In this document: piece after piece, positions 30,119 through 38,846 of the stretch
Layout of the letters: each line of letters begins with the position of its first letter
Position numbering within the stretch: the stretch's first letter is position 1
Source of the DNA: Oscillatoria sp. HE19RPO
GTDB taxonomy: Bacteria > Cyanobacteriota > Cyanobacteriia > Cyanobacteriales > Laspinemataceae
Assembly: GCF_024220515.1 (NCBI RefSeq)
Contig: NZ_JAMXOT010000254.1
Span: forward strand, 1 to 38,866
Reading direction: 5' to 3'
DNA: 38,866 bases
Translations under genes and position numbers: made by a program
Notes under the pieces: model-generated
Databases searched by the model: none
What the model was told of the DNA's origin: nothing
What the model saw: the letters and a program-made list of their open reading frames with translations, nothing else

Positions 30119-31299
30119 ACCTTGGACTGACCCTAAATTTAGGGGCAACTTGTGAATCCTCTTGACAACTGACAGAGCAAGTGAGGGGTTTGACCTCACA
30201 GGGGTTAAACCCCTCATTAAGAAAAGCATAATTGGGTTCAGGAATGCGATCGCTCTCCCCCATTTCTCTCTTCTCTTTCGAGTTAGCAGATCCGAGGATA
30301 TTGTCCCCTTTTCTTCCTATTGTTGTTAACGAGGATACAATCGCGCTTGATCGCATTCCGTCTGATATTCTGTGATCCAAGTCTACAAATTCAGGGCTAA
30401 TTGTGGCTACGGAATCAGATAATGAAATTTATCATAAACTGGTCGTTATCTGTATTAAGATTTGATGAAAATTATAGGACTAGCGCATCATTCCTAATTC
30501 CTGGTAAGGGGAATTGATGAAAAAAATCCGAGGTCCCCTCTACCTAAAGGAATAGATTGGACGCGCACCGCCTTAACGGATCGTGGTCTGGATCTCATCC
30601 GGAAAACCCAGGGGGGTCACCGTTGAAAAGCTATTCAAGGTAGAGCATCGGGAATTTTATCCTTGAGAAGGGGATCAACTCCAGAAGTGGGTGGATACTT
30701 TGAAAGTTTACAAAGACTCTAACTTAAGAGTGATCGTTTCAGGGATGACAGCACTCAACCCCTTATCCATTAATACCCCCTCCGAGAGATTAAAGAGCTA
30801 ATACTTCTATGTTGAAATAGCAACCAGAACTTTAAAGAACGCTTCTGACTCGTAAAACCGTCTTACAACGTTAAGACTTTGAGCAATTCAACCTATCCCT
30901 AGAGTGTGATAACCCCCTCTATCTATAAATAACGGGGCTGATATTTTTCCTGATGCCTCCATCAGGAGAAGCAAAAATTTTTGCTTCCGACTAAGAGTCG
31001 GCCCAGAACTTTCCATCATCCAGGGGGACAACAGGTCTAAACCAGAATGTTCTGTAAATCCGATATTTGAGGTTAGAATGCTATATTCTTTTTGTTTTTC
31101 AGGCTATTCAACTCCTAATGTTGAAAACCAACTTAGAATTTTAATAAACTCCAATACAAAGATAAATTTTATTATTGGGCCAACCTAAATAAATATAGAC
31201 TTTCTAAATCATTTAGAGAAGCTTTTAAGCTTTAACAAGTTTAACAAGCAAGACCTATTCACGATTGGGTCTTCCACTATTCATTTAGGTTTGCTAGTT
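30119..31299. other. 1.2 kb non-coding region between the PLD gene and hetC
   Basis: I find no gene here. A 9-base stem (GAGGGGTTT / AAACCCCTC, 30183-30215) 65 bases after the PLD stop may mark the end of that operon, although no T-run follows. A 20-base perfect palindrome, GAAGCAAAAATTTTTGCTTC, lies at 30968-30987 in the AT-rich half leading to hetC. Its size and position would suit a regulator-binding site or a small-RNA hairpin; the long leader of hetC may be transcribed. No promoter boxes could be assigned with confidence. Confidence 0.5.
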
Positions 31300-34200
31300 A
31301 TGAAAGAAATATTTCAAAAAAATAAATCTGATGAATCATCCCGAATTTCGTCAGCCCATCCCTTAGAGAATTTACCCACGCTGATGCAGATTTTACCGGC
31401 AGCCAGCCGGGAGTCAAGGACTACGGCTCAACTGGTTAAAGCGTTTGAAGTCCAGGGGTTTCAAATTGGAGATGAACTCCTCTACGTGGGGGAGTCCGAT
31501 CCCGGAATGGCTGAGAATCAAATGCCCGGTCATAGCGATTGTTACTTCATAGACCAAGGCCGAGTTCGGCTGCTGGTTTTTGATGCAGAACGACAGCGAG
31601 AAATTTGTGCGATGGTCCTGGAGAAAGGGGATAGTTTTGGAGGGGATGAAGGGTTAGACCAAAAGCCACTCCCGTACCGAGTCGTCGCGGCGAGTGATGG
31701 CGTGGTTTCGCGAATTTCCCCAGACAAACTGCGGCCTTTTTTGGAGGAAGAACCGACGATTCAAGCCTATTTGAGTGAACAAATGACTCAACGGCAATGC
31801 CAGCTTTTTTTGAAAACTGTCACCGAATTGCGATCGCTCTCCAGTCATCAGATTCGGCAACTACTCCCCTATCTCCAAGAAAAATCCATCCCCGCCCATG
31901 CCTCCCTGGTTGAAGTTACCCCAACCTCCCAGGGTCATTATTGGCTGCGGCATGGAGAGATTCAGGGAGGGACTGAGGCATCCCATGTGCAAATTCAGGC
32001 GACGGGAACGAGTTGGGGATATCCCCAGGAAACGCCGACGGACTGGATTGCGGCAACGGAATTGGACATTATTGAACTTCCAGTCGCCCAGTGGGAATCT
32101 GCCACGGCGATCGCCCCAGTCCTAGCTGGCGATCGCAGTGAAAACGGGAATGGCAATGGGAATGGGAATGGACACCGGCGATCGCCCACCCGCATTCTCC
32201 ACCGTCCCTCCCCCCCAATCATGACCCCCGCCACCGGACCCCAATCCAGTCGGGATAACGGGAATAGCCGCCCGGATGGATCGGACCCGCGATCGGGTCA
32301 GAACCCAGTCCTGTTTCCCAAACCCACCCACCGACGGTTTTTAGACCTGCTGGCGCGATATCCCCACGTCCAACAGCAATCCTCCTCCGATTGTGGTGCC
32401 GCTTGCTTAGTGATGATTGGCCAATACTGGGGTAAACGCTTTAGCATCAACTATGTGCGAGATTTGGCCGGGGTGGGGCGATCGGGAGCCTCCCTCAAAG
32501 GATTAGCCAAAGCCGCTGAAAAGCAGGGATTTCATGCCCTGCCCGTGCGCGGGTCCTTAGACCGTTTAGGCGAGCGCAAAAATCCCTGGATCGCCCATTG
32601 GCAGGGCATTCATTATGTAGTGGTCTATAAAGTTACCCCCCATCGCATCCTCGTTGCCGACCCTGCCGAGAGCAAAAAATGGGTGAAGCGCCAGGAGTTT
32701 CTGTCCCACTGGACAGGTTACGCCCTGGTCCTCGACCCCACCGAACGCCTGAAAGAGGCCAAAACCGAGAAACGCTCCCTGGGCCGATTTATCAGTGCCT
32801 TAGTGCCTTATCGCAATCTGGCGTTACAAATTATCGCCTTCTCGATTCTCATCCAAATTTTTGGCCTGATTCAACCCCTATTTACCCAGATTATTCTGGA
32901 TCAAGTCGTCACCCAACAAAGCCTCAGTGCCCTCAATCTCTTTTGCTTAGGTGCACTCATCTTTGGACTCTGGAGTAAAGGGCTCTCTGCGGTGCGGAAA
33001 TACCTGCTGAGTTATTTTTCCAACCGTTTGGACCTCACCCTGATTGGCGGCTTTATCCGTCACGCCATGATGCTCCCCTTGAAGTTTTTTGAATCGCGCC
33101 GGGTGGGGGATATCATCACGCGAGTTCAGGAAAACCGGAAAATCCAACAATTTTTGATTGGTCAAGTGGTCCTAGCCTGGTTAAATTTCATCACCGGGTT
33201 TGTATATTTGGGCCTGATGCTCTATTACAATGCCCGCCTGACTCTGCTGGTGCTGGCAATGATTCCGTTCATCATCCTCTTGACCCTTCTGGCAACCCCC
33301 TTATTGCGTAAAGTATCTCGGGAAGTCTTTAATGCCTCTGCGGATCAGAATTCCTCCCTGGTGGAAATGTTTACCGGAGTCACCACTCTCAAATCTACCG
33401 CCACAGAGTATCAGATGCGCTGGCGCTGGGAAGATTACTTTACCGAAGCCCTCAATGTCCGCTTTAAGGGTCAAAAACTGGGCATTGGCTTAGAAGTGAT
33501 CAACTCCACCATTAGTATCGTCGGCAGTATTGCCTTGTTGTGGTACGGGGGACGGCTGATTATTCAAGGGGACCTCACCATCGGACAGTTCGTGGCCTTT
33601 AATATGATGAAAGGCCGGATTATTACGCCGGTTTTAGCCCTGGCAAACCTCTGGGATCAACTGCAAGAGGTGCTGATTTCTGTAGAAAGACTGAATGATG
33701 TCTTTGAGACGGAACCGGAGGAAAGTCCCGGAAGTGCCATGATGGTGTTGCCGCCATTGCGGGGGGACGTGCGCTTAGAAAATGTCACTTTTCGGTATAG
33801 CGAAGATGACGAACGCAATACTTTGGAGAATATTTCGTTTGAGGTGAAAGCGGGGCAAACTACGGCGATCGTCGGGCGGAGTGGGTCGGGGAAAAGTACC
33901 TTGGTGAGCTTGCTTCAGCGGTTGTATTCCCCGAATAGCGGGCGGATCTTTATTGATGGTCACGATATCTGTCATGTTTCCCCCTCTTCCTTGCGAAGTC
34001 AGATTGGGGTAGTGCCGCAAGATTGTTTCTTGTTTTCGGGGACAATTTCCGAGAATATCACCCTTTACTCCGATGAGTTTGCCCTAGATGACGTGATAGA
34101 GGTGGCAAAAATGGCGGAAGCCCATCCGTTTATTCAGGAGATGCCTCTAGGATACAATACCAAGGTGGGGGAGCGTGGTTCCTCACTTTCCGGGGGACAG

Positions 34201-34494
34201 CGCCAACGAATTGCGATCGCCCGGGCATTGTTGGGCAATCCCCGAATTTTGCTCCTAGATGAGGCAACGAGTTCGTTGGATACGGAGTCGGAACGCCGGT
34301 TCCAGCAAAATCTGGCTCGGTTTAGCCGCGATCGCACGACTTTTATTATTGCCCACCGACTCTCGACAGTCCGCAATGCTGACTGTATTCTGGTTCTCGA
34401 TCGCGGACTTCTCGTGGAGCGCGGCACTCATGAGCAACTCATGGAGCAGCGCGGGTTGTACTATCATCTGGCTCAACAGCAGCTCGATCTTTAA
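31300..34494 (+). CDS. hetC: HetC-type peptidase-containing ABC exporter (PCAT) with N-terminal cNMP-like domains
   Basis: This 1064-residue inner-membrane exporter matches HetC-type transporters in layout. Residues 1-150 and 180-265 look like two cyclic-nucleotide-binding-like folds, joined through a Gly/Asn/Pro-rich linker (GNGNGNGNGH near 284). The C39 peptidase domain (about 355-480) has its triad at C365 in SSDCGAACL, H438 in GIHYVVVY and D454 in VADPAE; it cleaves leaders after Gly-Gly. A six-helix membrane domain (about 500-790) precedes the ATPase, with Walker A GRSGSGKST at 859, LSGGQRQR at 963 and LLLDEATSSLD at 984. In Anabaena, hetC lies directly upstream of hetP and is needed early in heterocyst development; here a HetP-domain gene follows after an HlyD gene. 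ATG 31300 is chosen over a TTG 9 bases earlier. Confidence 0.88.
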   Translation: MKEIFQKNKSDESSRISSAHPLENLPTLMQILPAASRESRTTAQLVKAFEVQGFQIGDELLYVGESDPGMAENQMPGHSDCYFIDQGRVRLLVFDAERQREICAMVLEKGDSFGGDEGLDQKPLPYRVVAASDGVVSRISPDKLRPFLEEEPTIQAYLSEQMTQRQCQLFLKTVTELRSLSSHQIRQLLPYLQEKSIPAHASLVEVTPTSQGHYWLRHGEIQGGTEASHVQIQATGTSWGYPQETPTDWIAATELDIIELPVAQWESATAIAPVLAGDRSENGNGNGNGNGHRRSPTRILHRPSPPIMTPATGPQSSRDNGNSRPDGSDPRSGQNPVLFPKPTHRRFLDLLARYPHVQQQSSSDCGAACLVMIGQYWGKRFSINYVRDLAGVGRSGASLKGLAKAAEKQGFHALPVRGSLDRLGERKNPWIAHWQGIHYVVVYKVTPHRILVADPAESKKWVKRQEFLSHWTGYALVLDPTERLKEAKTEKRSLGRFISALVPYRNLALQIIAFSILIQIFGLIQPLFTQIILDQVVTQQSLSALNLFCLGALIFGLWSKGLSAVRKYLLSYFSNRLDLTLIGGFIRHAMMLPLKFFESRRVGDIITRVQENRKIQQFLIGQVVLAWLNFITGFVYLGLMLYYNARLTLLVLAMIPFIILLTLLATPLLRKVSREVFNASADQNSSLVEMFTGVTTLKSTATEYQMRWRWEDYFTEALNVRFKGQKLGIGLEVINSTISIVGSIALLWYGGRLIIQGDLTIGQFVAFNMMKGRIITPVLALANLWDQLQEVLISVERLNDVFETEPEESPGSAMMVLPPLRGDVRLENVTFRYSEDDERNTLENISFEVKAGQTTAIVGRSGSGKSTLVSLLQRLYSPNSGRIFIDGHDICHVSPSSLRSQIGVVPQDCFLFSGTISENITLYSDEFALDDVIEVAKMAEAHPFIQEMPLGYNTKVGERGSSLSGGQRQRIAIARALLGNPRILLLDEATSSLDTESERRFQQNLARFSRDRTTFIIAHRLSTVRNADCILVLDRGLLVERGTHEQLMEQRGLYYHLAQQQLDL

Positions 34495-34512: not shown

Positions 34513-34981
34513 GTCTATAAAAACCCGCAGGCTGAAGCCTGGGGCTATACGGACGAAGCCTGCCTCCGCAGGCTGAAGAGAAAGGCGACTTTTAATAGCC
34601 GAATTGGGTATGATACGGAATCCGGTTGTCAAAGGTCTATAAAAACCCGCAGGCTCAAGCCTGGGGCTATACGGACGAAGCCTGCCTCCGCAGGCTGAAG
34701 AGAAAGGCGACTTTTAATAGCTGAATTGGGTATGATACGGAATCCGGTTGTCAAAGGTCTGTAAAAACCCGCAGGCTCAAGCCTGGGGCTATACGGACGA
34801 AGCCTGCCTCCGCAGGCTGAAGAGAAAAGCGACTTTTAATAGCTGAATTGGGTATGATACGGAATCCGGTTGTCAAAGGTCTGTAAAAACCCGCAGGCTC
34901 AAGCCTGGGGCTACACGGACGAAGCCTGCCTCCGCAGGCTGAAGAGAAAAGCGACTTTTAACAACCGAATTTGGTATGATT
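34513..34981. repeat. Four tandem copies of a 122-base repeat
   Basis: Copies begin with GTCTATAAAAACCCGCAGG or its GTCTG variant at 34513, 34635, 34757 and 34879, giving an exact 122-base period; the last copy is slightly short. Each contains the 53-base hairpin element also found inverted at 23155-23207, followed by a spacer with CGACTTTTAATAGC and TGATACGGAATCCGGTTGTC. The array lies in the 912-base gap between the exporter and the HlyD gene and would form four successive strong hairpins in a shared transcript. Confidence 0.92.
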
Positions 34982-35406: not shown

Positions 35407-37428
35407 ATGAATTTTCATCTCGGACCCGATTCTCCCTTCACTCACCCAAGCGGGAGGAATAGTCAAGAACCGTCATCTCGTCACCGGGGTAGCTTGCACT
35501 TGCTCGATACTGCCTGTGATGTTGATAGAGGGACACAGAGGGTGAAGGCTGGCGATCGCGCTGATGCCATCTATGGCGGGATGGCAGCGTCAGACGCGCT
35601 GCCTCGGACTGGACGAGATCGCCCCGATCGCGACGATGATCGCAGCGCTCACTGGTCGAGTGCCATGCAAAACCTGCTGGATCGTCCCCCTGCCTCCTTT
35701 CCTACTCAATTACTCTTAGGGGGAATGGCATTCTGTATAGCATTTGGGGCTTGGTCTTGGTTCGGGCGGATTAACGAAGTGGGTCAGGCAGTGGGCGAAC
35801 TGATTCCCCAGGGAGATGTCTATCAAGTTCATCCCCTGGAAATGGGGAAGGTTGCCAAAGTCGGGGTTGCCGAAGGGGATCAAGTGCAAGCGGGGACAGT
35901 CATTGCCGAACTGGATACCCAACTGGCTGCCACGGAAGTGGATCGCCTGGGAGAGCAGTTAGCCACCTATCAACTGCAATTGGTGCAGAAACAAGCACTG
36001 ATGGAGAATACCGGGCTGGAAGCAGAAACCCAAGGGGCGATCGCCAAAGCTGATGCTCAAGCTCATCAAACCCTGATTGCTCAAGCCGAGAAAAATGTCA
36101 CCACCACCCAAAATTTGCTCACCCAACTCCAAGCGGATGCGGCTGAACTGGAGGCGCGACGGCAGACCCTCGCCCCCCTAGCGGGACAAGCCCAGCAACT
36201 GGTGGAGCAACTGCAAGGGGATATAGAGGCTCAACGGGAACGGGGTGAGATCTTAAAGCCGATGGAAAATCAGACTCGGGAACTGATTGAGCGACTGGAA
36301 ACCGATGTCACCGCCCAGCAGCAACGGCAGCAACTGCTCGAACCGATGCAACAAAAAACGCAAGCGTTGATTGAGCAACTCAAGGTTGATGTGGCTGAAC
36401 AGCAGGCACGGGTGGAACGGCTGAGTCCGTTGGTGGAGGAGGGAGCTTTGTCCCGAGAGCATTTGTTTCAAGCGGAACAATCCCTGCGCGATCGCCAGAA
36501 TGCCTTAACCCGAGCAGAAATGGTCGAGGCAACCCAAGCCAAAGAGCGGATGTTTGATGCCGAACAAGCCGAACGCGATCGCCGGAATGCGTTACTGCGG
36601 GCACAAATGTCGGAGGTGACTTCGGTGCAAGAACGGATGTTTGAAGCCGAACAAGCCCTGCGCGATCGGCAAACGGCTGCGGTGCGATCGCAACTCTCCG
36701 AGGCAACCATTGCCCAGGAACGATTGTTTGAAGCCGAACAAGCCCTGCGATCGCATCGCCAACGGATTACCGACACCCAAGCCCAGCTTGAGCAACGGGA
36801 ATCGGAATTAGCACAATTACAGGCACAACAGATTCAGAAACAAGCCGAAGCCCAACGTCTTGAAATTGAGTCCCAACAGCGCATCAAACAGTTGCAAGTC
36901 GAAGTTACCCAGCTAGAAGGTTCCATCGCCCAAACTCACAATCACCTCACCCGTGCCAAAACTCAGTTAAACCAGCAATTTCTATATGCGCCCGTCGATG
37001 GCACCATCCTTGCCCTCAACATTGCTCACCCCGGGGAAGTCGTCCAACCGGGACAGACCCTAGCCCAAATTGCCCCAGAGGATGCACCCCTCGTCCTTTC
37101 AGCGATTATCCCCAGTCGGGAAGCCGGTTTTATCGAGACGGGAATGGAAGTACAAGTGAAACTTGATGCCTACTCCTTCCAGGATTATGGCGTCATTCCA
37201 GGAGAAGTGACCTCTATTTCTCCTCAAGCCAACGCCGATCCCCAATTAGGATCCGTATATAACATCGAAATTGCCCTCGCTCATAACTATGTGACAGAAA
37301 ATGGAGAAAAGATTTATTTTAAGCCCGGTCAAACTGCCAACGCCGATATCATCATCCGGGAACGTCGGATTCTTGATGTGATATTGGATCCGATCCGGAA
37401 GTTGCAAGACGGTGGCATGAATTTCTAG
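35407..37428 (+). CDS. HlyD-family membrane fusion (periplasmic adaptor) protein
   Basis: The 673-residue protein is the adaptor that would link the HetC-type exporter to an outer-membrane channel. An unusually long hydrophilic N-terminus (residues 1-98, rich in Arg and Asp) is followed by one transmembrane helix (about 100-119). Next comes the first half of a lipoyl domain (VHPLEMGKVAKVGVAEGDQV), then a coiled coil at about 175-520, the second lipoyl half (LYAPVDGTILALNIAHPGEV) and a beta-barrel domain. The coiled coil contains two internal repeat series: four 28-residue units marked L(A/K/E/S)P(L/M), and four 29-residue units marked (L/M)F(Q/D/E)AEQ at about 353, 382, 411 and 440. This makes the hairpin longer than usual for the family. 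The HetP-domain gene follows after 46 bases. Confidence 0.92.
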   Translation: MNFHLGPDSPFTHPSGRNSQEPSSRHRGSLHLLDTACDVDRGTQRVKAGDRADAIYGGMAASDALPRTGRDRPDRDDDRSAHWSSAMQNLLDRPPASFPTQLLLGGMAFCIAFGAWSWFGRINEVGQAVGELIPQGDVYQVHPLEMGKVAKVGVAEGDQVQAGTVIAELDTQLAATEVDRLGEQLATYQLQLVQKQALMENTGLEAETQGAIAKADAQAHQTLIAQAEKNVTTTQNLLTQLQADAAELEARRQTLAPLAGQAQQLVEQLQGDIEAQRERGEILKPMENQTRELIERLETDVTAQQQRQQLLEPMQQKTQALIEQLKVDVAEQQARVERLSPLVEEGALSREHLFQAEQSLRDRQNALTRAEMVEATQAKERMFDAEQAERDRRNALLRAQMSEVTSVQERMFEAEQALRDRQTAAVRSQLSEATIAQERLFEAEQALRSHRQRITDTQAQLEQRESELAQLQAQQIQKQAEAQRLEIESQQRIKQLQVEVTQLEGSIAQTHNHLTRAKTQLNQQFLYAPVDGTILALNIAHPGEVVQPGQTLAQIAPEDAPLVLSAIIPSREAGFIETGMEVQVKLDAYSFQDYGVIPGEVTSISPQANADPQLGSVYNIEIALAHNYVTENGEKIYFKPGQTANADIIIRERRILDVILDPIRKLQDGGMNF

Positions 37429-37474: not shown

Positions 37475-37882
37475 ATGGCTTATCAAATGCATTATTCTAA
37501 CCGTAACCTGAACAAAATCATGACCCAAGAGCAATTTGAACTCGTGGTGGATGCAATTCTAGCGGGTAAGTATTCCTGGGCTTGCGTCTTGATCCTGCGC
37601 TTTGGCGGCTACAACCCCCTTCATTACATTCCCTACCGCACCTACAACAGGTTGATGAAACAACAACGCCAAGGGCGTCAGGAAAGCGGCCATCGCACCA
37701 AGGATGACTACTCAGATCAAGAACAGGATAAAGGGAACAATTCCCAGGACGGCAATCATAAAATCAAGGACTTGACCTATTTAGAAGTTGTCGAGCATCA
37801 AAGCCACCAGGTAACAGGCGGATCAACCGCTCTCTATGCTTCTGAGTCCACAGCGCTTGGAAATGTTATTTCGTTTCAGTAG
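37475..37882 (+). CDS. HetP-domain protein ending in a double-glycine leader-like segment
   Basis: Residues 15-62 carry the HetP-family domain: [20 protein letters not shown], then [20 protein letters not shown]. HetP proteins control commitment to heterocyst development in Anabaena, by an unknown biochemical mechanism. A hydrophilic, Gln/Asp/Gly-rich linker (64-95) leads to [20 protein letters not shown] (97-116), a segment with the form of a bacteriocin-type Gly-Gly leader, followed by a 19-residue tail rich in Ser/Ala. The following small gene begins with nearly the same leader. AAAGGAGA lies 8 bases before the ATG. Placed right behind a C39 exporter and its adaptor, the protein could be an export substrate cut at G116, or a HetP protein tethered to the exporter. 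A strong intrinsic terminator follows. Confidence 0.82.
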
Positions 37883-37969
37883 GGGGGGGATGTTTGCTGC
37901 AACCTGCGATCGTCTCTCATGATTTTAGCTCCTGTTTAGAATATGCTTATTTTTCGCTAGATAGTTTCA

Positions 37970-38010
37970 CTGGCGGAGTTCTAAAAATCCTGAACTCTGC
38001 CAGTTTTTTT
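37970..38010 (+). terminator. Rho-independent terminator after the HetP-domain gene
   Basis: CTGGCGGAGTTC at 37970-37981 pairs with GAACTCTGCCAG at 37992-38003 (12 bases, one G-T pair) around a 10-base AT-rich loop, and is followed at once by seven T residues. It ends the transcript 88 bases after the stop codon, so the next small precursor gene must have its own promoter. Confidence 0.93.
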
Positions 38011-38050
38011 ATACCCAATCCGGTTCTCATACAGAATCCGGTGGGGATAG

Positions 38051-38195
38051 GTCTGTAAAAACTAGCCCTGTCAAGGTGATAAATTTAATGACGAAAAATC
38101 ATTGTTTCTTGTAGGGGCGCAATGTGCAGGCCCTCCGGAGGGCCTGCGCATTGCGCCCCTACAAATACACCTTGACAGGGCTAGTTTTTATAGAC
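38051..38195. repeat. Composite 145-base inverted-repeat element
   Basis: Outer arms of 28 bases (GTCTGTAAAAACTAGCCCTG through 38078, and its complement from 38168) differ at one position. Nested inside is a second stem, TTGTAGGGGCGCAATG with its complement (38109-38164), which encloses the perfect palindrome GCAGGCCCTCCGGAGGGCC at 38126. A partial copy opens the window at 1-64. Its GTCTRTAAAAAC end and the AATCCGG flank resemble the spacer of the 122-base repeats, so the two families may share an origin. No coding capacity. Confidence 0.85.
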
Positions 38196-38218
38196 TATCT
38201 GAATTTTTATCCAATATT

Positions 38219-38480
38219 TGTCAAAATGGCAACACGAGATTGAGGCAACTGACTAAGATAAATACAGTGAATTTTCATCGTGAATTTCCTAGGAATTTGT
38301 CAAAATGGCAACACGAAATTGAGGCAACTGGCTAAGATAAAGACAGTGAATTTTCATCGTGAATTTCCTAGGAATTTGTCAAAATGGCAACACGAAATTG
38401 AGGCAACTGGCTAAAATAAAGACAGTGAATCTTCATCGTGAATTTCCCAGGAATTTGTCAAAATGGCAACACGATATGGA
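38219..38480. repeat. 79-base tandem repeat, about 3.3 copies, upstream of the precursor gene
   Basis: TCAAAATGGCAACACGA recurs at 38221, 38300, 38379 and 38458, an exact 79-base period. Each unit also contains GAGGCAACTG, AAGACAGTGAAT and TTCATCGTGAATTTCC, with very few differences between units. The array ends about 55 bases before the start of the small precursor gene, so it occupies the promoter or leader position of that gene. The repeat could be a set of regulator-binding sites. Confidence 0.92.
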
Positions 38481-38534
38481 GAAAATGGGTTAAATTGAAT
38501 GATTTAACCTAATAAATTCAAACAGGAGAAACCA

Positions 38535-38846
38535 ATGATTATTTCTGACTTAAACCATTTAGAAGTTGTTAACCAAGAAACCCAAGTCGTTGGCGGCTGG
38601 GGCGGAAACGACGCCAATTTCGATTTCAATGCCGATATCTACAAAGATGTAGATGTCAATGTGAACGAAGATGTGGATATCTACAAAGAATTTGATATAG
38701 ATGCCGAAGTTAAAGGCATCAGTGCCTTTGCCGAAGCTGAAGCGATCGCGATGGGCGACGATGCTCATGCTGAGTCCTTAACCTTCACCTTCACCGAAGA
38801 CTACTTCGCCGCCTCTTCAGCCCAATCTGTGTCCGTCACGGGCTAA
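38535..38846 (+). CDS. Double-glycine leader peptide precursor with acidic core
   Basis: The 103-residue product begins with the leader MIISDLNHLEVVNQETQVVG plus G21, a bacteriocin-type Gly-Gly leader. The predicted core is 82 residues, very acidic, with no Cys and almost no basic residues. Residues 29-57 repeat an Asp/Asn/Val/Tyr pattern (DFNADIYKDVDVNVNEDV, DIYKEFDID), then an Ala-rich stretch and a Thr/Phe/Ser-rich end. DLxxLEVV is shared with the C-terminal segment of the HetP-domain protein, so both are probable substrates of the same exporter. Lack of Cys and of modification enzymes nearby argues against a lanthipeptide; it may be an exported structural or signalling peptide. AACAGGAGA precedes the ATG at good spacing. 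The stop lies 20 bases from the window end. Confidence 0.85.
   Translation: MIISDLNHLEVVNQETQVVGGWGGNDANFDFNADIYKDVDVNVNEDVDIYKEFDIDAEVKGISAFAEAEAIAMGDDAHAESLTFTFTEDYFAASSAQSVSVTG

Follow-up and report, generated by a model that had tools for sequence, protein, structure and literature searches.

A C-terminal leader-like segment of HetP-family proteins is shared with free peptide precursors and tends to decay once the exporter HetC is lost

The window analyzed here is the whole stretch of 38,866 nucleotides from Oscillatoria sp. HE19RPO (contig NZ_JAMXOT010000254.1). The genes and elements at the locus under study are as follows.

31291–34494, plus strand: peptidase-containing ABC exporter (PCAT), 1067 aa in the listed frame (PF00027, PF03412, PF00664, PF00005)
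32359–32745, plus strand: C39 peptidase domain of the exporter, the presumed leader reader (PF03412, 137 bits)
35407–37428, plus strand: HlyD-family adaptor (membrane fusion protein), 673 aa in the open frame (TIGR01843, 226.6 bits, cut-off 208.65; PF13437)
37475–37882, plus strand: HetP-family protein with a C-terminal leader-like segment, 135 aa (open reading frame and NF037966)
37484–37663, plus strand: HetP domain, three helices in the model (NF037966, 118.1 bits; AlphaFold model)
37760–37822, plus strand: leader-like segment, residues 96–116 (K96–G116), predicted cut after G116 (HetP alignment, leader HMM)
37823–37879, plus strand: C-terminal tail, exactly 19 residues, which cleavage would free (sequence)
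37969–38004, plus strand: hairpin followed by a T run, terminator-like (−22.3 kcal/mol, z −6.3, 0 of 200 shuffles as low)
38535–38846, plus strand: free precursor gene, 103 aa (open reading frame; leader scan)
38535–38597, plus strand: N-terminal leader of the free precursor, MIISDLNHLEVVNQETQVVGG (leader scan; DNA repeat with the HetP tail)

An earlier note on this DNA had described the protein at 37475–37882 as a HetP domain followed by a Gly-Gly leader-like segment and a 19-residue tail, and the profile search bears this out: residues 4–63 match the NCBIfam HetP_family model NF037966 with 116.9 bits against a curated cut-off of 45, and this is the single HetP match in the genome. The AlphaFold model of the domain comprises three confident helices (mean pLDDT above 90 in each ten-residue block from residue 21 to 60), and a PDB fold search with it returned nothing at E <= 0.001. 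The tail is modeled with low confidence as mostly unstructured and is predicted to be disordered; structural support for docking is therefore absent. The segment itself reads KIKDLTYLE, ten further residues and GG, and thus follows the published pattern KIxDLxYLEx10GG. In an alignment of 29 HetP proteins, whose members were chosen for their tails, G115 is invariant and D99, Y102 and G116 are each conserved in at least 90%. Among the properties expected of a PCAT substrate, the window protein has the cut site (Gly-Gly, Gly-Ala or Gly-Ser; here Gly-Gly at residues 115–116), a hydrophobic residue at −4 (V113) and a gene beside a C39 exporter; it departs from them in the placement of the leader, which should be N-terminal and here starts at residue 96 of 135. 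The earlier note had called a leader behind a folded domain unusual, a layout that is not in fact unique: in NHLP and Nif11 precursors, too, a domain-derived leader is followed by Gly-Gly and a variable peptide. Unlike those precursors, HetP also acts as a regulator in heterocyst formers, and searches of NCBIfam and Pfam with E up to 1 matched the window protein to neither family. PMC3140520 names both.

Upstream of the HetP gene, the exporter combines cNMP-binding, C39 peptidase, ABC membrane and ATPase domains, which is the architecture of HetC, and carries the Cys, His and Asp that were used to define the catalytic columns. Between the two genes lies the HlyD gene, absent from the earlier note, which ends 46 bases 5’ of the HetP gene on the same strand. 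The hairpin at 37969–38004, which a terminator scan with a loop limit of 8 did not detect, would terminate the exporter-HlyD-HetP unit. Further downstream, the free precursor matched nothing in Pfam and nothing above cut-off in NCBIfam; it starts with a leader matching that of HetP, as had been claimed; at the DNA level the two leader segments are 76% identical over 38 nt (37769–37806 and 38547–38584).

The spaces between these genes are rich in repeats. A 122-nt unit is arrayed in tandem in the exporter/HlyD gap (34513–34980, copies 95–98% alike), with a diverged copy (70%) of its core at 38006–38075, and a 79-nt unit is repeated in tandem directly 5’ of the free precursor gene (38216–38493). 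Nested inverted repeats resembling a MITE lie between the HetP and precursor genes (38051–38195), with 28-nt arms that are 96% complementary and an inner palindrome of 28+28 nt.

The motif has been in print for some time. Wang, Fewer and Sivonen reported KIxDLxYLEx10GG in 2011 in HetP proteins that lie beside bacteriocin clusters with C39 exporters, proposed these proteins as bacteriocin precursors and suggested M16 as the protease (PMC3140520). The window HetP shares the family, the motif and the C39-exporter neighborhood of these HetP-type precursors, which the 2011 and 2015 papers treat as bacteriocin precursors; the tie to HetC is what is added here. In 2015, Micallef et al. described the same pattern for true-branching (Subsection V) cyanobacteria, each genome under study having it in a HetP-type precursor (PMC4558948). 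The word HetC is absent from the main texts of both papers, and a literature search covering the main texts of open-licence papers returned none that ties the HetP motif to HetC. The motif has thus been known since 2011 and 2015, and our additions are its link to the state of HetC, the box that HetP and the free precursors in these clusters share, and the single clade that unites the exporters.

PCC 7120 needs the exporter-protease HetC to form heterocysts; the peptidase residues of HetC are essential, and its substrate was described in 2024 as an open question (PMC10986499). According to that account, no leader-bearing gene and no membrane fusion gene lie near hetC, and the export of HetP-derived peptides by HetC is raised as a question, in passages that do not mention the motif. 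The HetC-HetP pair of Anabaena/Nostoc PCC 7120 resembles the window in that a cNMP-binding C39 exporter adjoins a HetP protein, and in the box and Gly-Gly, which are present in heterocyst-forming relatives. It differs in two ways: an HlyD partner and a nearby free precursor accompany the exporter of the window, and that exporter falls outside the HetC clade.

To survey HetP loci, we searched 386 cyanobacterial genomes with NF037966, of which 64 were positive, the window's own included; the 63 others yielded 146 loci, taken with up to 9.9 kb on either side. A locus was called linked if a C39 exporter lay at most 3.5 kb upstream on the same strand (35 of 146), and three loci cut by contig ends stand outside the 35 linked and 108 unlinked ones. 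The earlier note had proposed that Gly-Gly should go together with the exporter, and it does: Gly-Gly was found in 29/35 linked as compared with 7/108 unlinked loci, using a regular expression and inspection by eye. The expression alone gave 27/35 and 7/108, missing the tails of L086 and L091, which were added by eye, and falsely matching L120 and L123, two unlinked rows with the helix only. Absence of Gly-Gly next to exporters, named in the note as grounds for rejecting the idea, was seen in just six of the linked loci, where the HetP protein is tailless (L092, L161 and L177) or carries Gly-Ser (L039, L049) or Gly-Arg (L054); L161 and L177 nevertheless have free precursors. Among the seven unlinked loci with Gly-Gly, three have HlyD directly upstream (L082, L087 and L108) and one an ABC exporter fragment (L041). 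In the survey, the tails behind Gly-Gly range from 1 to 53 residues.

We then scanned the neighborhoods for small open reading frames that had a Shine-Dalgarno-like site, started with ATG and encoded a leader of the D-L-x-x-L-E..GG type at the N-terminus. These occurred near 20/25 of the HlyD-linked HetP loci, as opposed to 3/121 of the others, and the latter three look spurious. A profile was built from 33 leaders, the window's own included, which were chosen by eye among 49 scan matches with near-copies, doubtful matches and one HetP match omitted. With this profile the tail of the window HetP scored 12.0 bits, as compared with 5.1 at most for 200 shuffles of the same tail; out of 147 HetP tails, window included, 130 were scored, and 43 of these exceeded the 99.9th percentile of 18,371 shuffles and 19 exceeded every shuffle. 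Position −4 is hydrophobic in all of the free-precursor leaders (33/33) and HetP tails (29/29) examined, and position −7 in just 2/33 and 2/29, respectively. By these sequence measures, the window HetP segment and the leaders of the free precursors share one leader class. HetP boxes were no closer to the precursors of their own cluster than to those of others (p = 0.31 and 0.56).

This class departs from the canonical C39 leader, which has Leu-12, Glu-8 and Leu-7 (PMC6363468), a combination that the window HetP does not display. The leaders read by ComA, LahT and CvaB (PCAT/AMS) share with the window HetP the Gly-Gly, the hydrophobic −4 and a gene beside a C39 exporter, whereas the HetP box is C-terminal to a domain of ~63 residues and lacks the hydrophobic −7 in 27/29 proteins. 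The departure at −7 may be why the signal near hetC was missed: in relatives, hetP, next to hetC, bears an atypical form of the leader signal that was said to be absent there (PMC10986499). Arrays of free precursors with Ala/Ser/Tyr-rich cores were observed beside HetP-linked exporters at several loci (L042, L091, L161 and others).

In a FastTree phylogeny of 67 exporters, HetC (17 rows) is a single clade (support 100) nested within a clade of 41 rows (support 99), to which every one of the 21 exporters with an HlyD link to HetP also belongs. The 26 other exporters fall outside it, among them the second exporter found downstream of hetP in many Nostocaceae. HetC and the HetP-linked exporters thus share a clade in this sequence tree. 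The window exporter had been called HetC-type, which holds for its cNMP-binding/C39/ABC architecture and not for its position or context: it lies outside the HetC clade, its nearest kin are HlyD- and HetP-linked exporters, and it has an HlyD partner. An HlyD-like ORF of 283–435 aa lies between hetC and hetP in 8 of 80 named loci, themselves the best 80 of 263 matches (L195, L206, L208, L210, L213, L214, L215 and L249), giving Fischerella, Westiellopsis, Chlorogloeopsis, Pelatocladus and a Nostocales MAG the same order as the window; the missing membrane fusion gene is therefore not a general feature of hetC loci. At most hetC loci surveyed, HlyD and the free precursors are gone and HetP is the leader-bearing protein adjoining HetC. 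The HetC-HetP pair of heterocyst formers would then be a derived form of the exporter-HlyD-HetP module, a direction of descent that we infer, the tree being rooted at its midpoint.

To relate the segment to the state of HetC, we pooled 42 heterocyst-type loci from the phylum sample, chosen by eye from their tails (40 after identical proteins were removed), with the 80 named loci, whose selection by match to a tail-including alignment favors tail-like rows; removal of nine identical proteins from the 122 left 113. HetC upstream was intact in 56 of these, carried a catalytic Cys-to-Ser change in 2, was a remnant in 26, absent in 27 and of unknown state in 2 (the remnant calls at L223 and L248 are based on 27–29% matches and may be absences). 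Gly-Gly accompanied 52/56 intact HetC, 1/2 with Cys-to-Ser, 16/26 remnants and 4/27 absences in the pooled rows, and a tail of at least 15 residues 56/56, 0/2, 23/26 and 4/27, respectively. Tails beside intact HetC measured 18–42 residues, none being shorter than 18, whereas 23/27 HetP proteins without HetC end 1–11 residues after the predicted cut site. In the phylum sample alone, Gly-Gly was present in 10/11 rows with intact HetC vs 3/23 without HetC, and a tail of at least 15 residues in 11/11 vs 2/23. A strict rule that HetP is truncated wherever HetC is lost was rejected, as 23/26 remnant rows retain such a tail.

Constraint on the motif follows the same division. Its pN/pS was 0.104 with HetC (bootstrap 0.063–0.144) and about double that with a remnant (0.230; 0.175–0.303) or none (0.229; 0.189–0.269), the sequence pairs being non-independent and the bootstrap resampling rows. 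The HetP domain remained steady (0.156 with HetC, 0.150 remnant, 0.156 none), and the linker gave 0.388, 0.443 and 0.383. The tail behind Gly-Gly (0.475) evolves as fast as the linker (0.388). On a HetP tree calculated without the tail columns, 12/12 inferred tail losses and 15/17 Gly-Gly losses fell on branches where HetC is lost, which make up 37% of the tree length; the 12 tail losses split one lineage, and merging likely single events by eye gave 8/8 (P = 3.8e-4) and 11/13 (P = 6.8e-4). Phylogenetically independent pairs were on average concordant in 1.9 and opposite in 0.3 cases for Gly-Gly, and in 3.5 and 0.0 cases for tail length, too few in either to reach 0.05. Taken together, these sequence comparisons show that in heterocyst formers the leader segment of HetP tends to decay once HetC is lost.

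Individual loci illustrate the pattern and its exceptions. In one genus (code g41), two loci carry HetC with a catalytic Cys-to-Ser change and a HetP tail of four residues (L049, 5554–8605; L063, 5560–8737), and a third has no HetC and one residue after Gly-Gly (L050). A single residue likewise follows Gly-Gly at L035, which has no HetC; L035, L050, L070 and L250 are the rows that retain Gly-Gly without it. Conversely, L054, L230 and L260 have Gly-Arg, which C39 peptidases are not expected to cut, beside a catalytically intact HetC. In 17/27 rows without HetC, probably of one lineage, HetP ends in REKKSA or a close form. The idea that HetC had merely moved elsewhere was rejected: a genome-wide search of 29 genomes without hetC beside hetP gave no strong match (best, 762 bits), as compared with 972 to 2399 bits in positive controls (4 of the 33 genomes searched), where in two of the four some strong matches are the HlyD-linked cousin and not HetC. 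At a number of Nostocales loci (L192, L198, L207, L227, L233, L239 and similar ones), hetC survives upstream of hetP as short fragments only (ORFs of 108–260 aa), although the records mostly bear the name of Nostoc, a genus that forms heterocysts.

The association of segment and exporter suggests that the C39 peptidase of the upstream exporter has the HetP-family protein as a ligand and, with good probability, as a substrate that it both binds and cuts. The HetP domain is followed by a flexible linker and then by the box of the free precursors (D-L-x-[YH]-L-E, a spacer, a hydrophobic −4 and Gly-Gly); the C39 domain would bind this box and cut after Gly-Gly, so that the HetP domain and a short tail come apart, and processing would alter the activity or release of HetP rather than mainly export a signal. 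The link between HetC and HetP through a leader signal, which the earlier note had proposed as new, accordingly stands on the shared class, the linkage, the decay upon HetC loss and the common clade of the exporters, while the motif was already published. HetP, which retains the signal mostly where HetC is retained, becomes the leading candidate for the target of HetC.

Genetic data from PCC 7120 bear on which product matters. There, in a strain with HetP-sfGFP next to the native hetP copy, a 3–4 fold rise in hetP transcript gave a mutant without the HetC peptidase motif its heterocyst frequency, nitrogenase and diazotrophic growth back, the rescued mutant having more contiguous heterocysts than the wild type (PMC4133259). 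Such a rescue would be expected if HetC acts through HetP; it also argues against an exported HetP peptide as the essential product. The authors describe HetP-GFP as cytoplasmic, and this together with the rescue favors processing that changes the activity or release of HetP, and after it docking alone; the epistasis thus speaks for HetP rather than the freed peptide as the functional output (PMC4133259). Several observations count against binding with cutting: the tailless proteins at L092, L161 and L177, Gly-Arg beside intact HetC at L054, L230 and L260, Gly-Gly without HetC at L050 and L035 and in 16/26 remnant rows, the non-canonical box, the lack of an own-cluster match, the non-significant pairs and the fast-evolving tail, as well as the apparently cytoplasmic HetP-GFP, whose position is similar when hetC lacks the peptidase motif (PMC4133259).

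Docking without cutting, in which the tail acts as a pseudo-substrate, tethers HetP to the C39 domain and either places HetP at the exporter or throttles the exporter, is an unlikely alternative with some points in its favor. HetC-GFP and HetP-GFP are both concentrated near the heterocyst poles (PMC4133259, PMC10986499), the box is much better conserved than the tail behind Gly-Gly (0.104 vs 0.475), and Gly-Arg is tolerated beside intact HetC. However, docking alone needs neither the second glycine nor a tail of at least 18 residues, both of which are retained (the former in 52/56 HetC-intact rows), and HetP-GFP is located similarly in the hetC peptidase-motif mutant (PMC4133259). Improbable, in our judgment, is the proposal that HetP proteins are bacteriocin precursors with an exported C-terminal part (PMC3140520): the bacteriocin-type clusters, the leader class and tails of 18–42 residues while HetC is intact agree with it, but tails behind Gly-Gly vary from 1 to 53 residues under weak constraint, the HetP domain of this known regulator is strongly constrained (0.156), and the rescue by GFP-fused, raised hetP makes an exported peptide seem non-essential (PMC4133259). 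That the segment has a function for HetP itself or for another protease (M16, PMC3140520) and was lost with hetC by accident of descent is very improbable, as the REKKSA-like ends of 17/27 HetC-absent rows, the underpowered pairs and the four rows with Gly-Gly and no HetC would allow it, whereas losses still fall 8/8 and 11/13 on HetC-lost branches after that lineage is merged, the shift in constraint is confined to the motif, and free precursors are headed by the same box.

Extending the binding-and-cutting reading, we tentatively propose, with somewhat more doubt than belief, that HetP is the missing substrate of HetC, that the HetC-HetP commitment step in heterocyst formation arose from a peptide-export operon of non-heterocystous cyanobacteria whose HetP protein already bore the leader of the exporter, that the cut switches HetP on, and that lineages without HetC have a hetP already ending near the cut site. 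If true, a switch in heterocyst differentiation would be traceable to a bacteriocin-like export module. A conserved pheromone as the freed tail was rejected as the main reading, since the tail evolves like the linker. Within the tails of HetC-intact rows, W, E and a C-terminal C-E-F-N are frequent.
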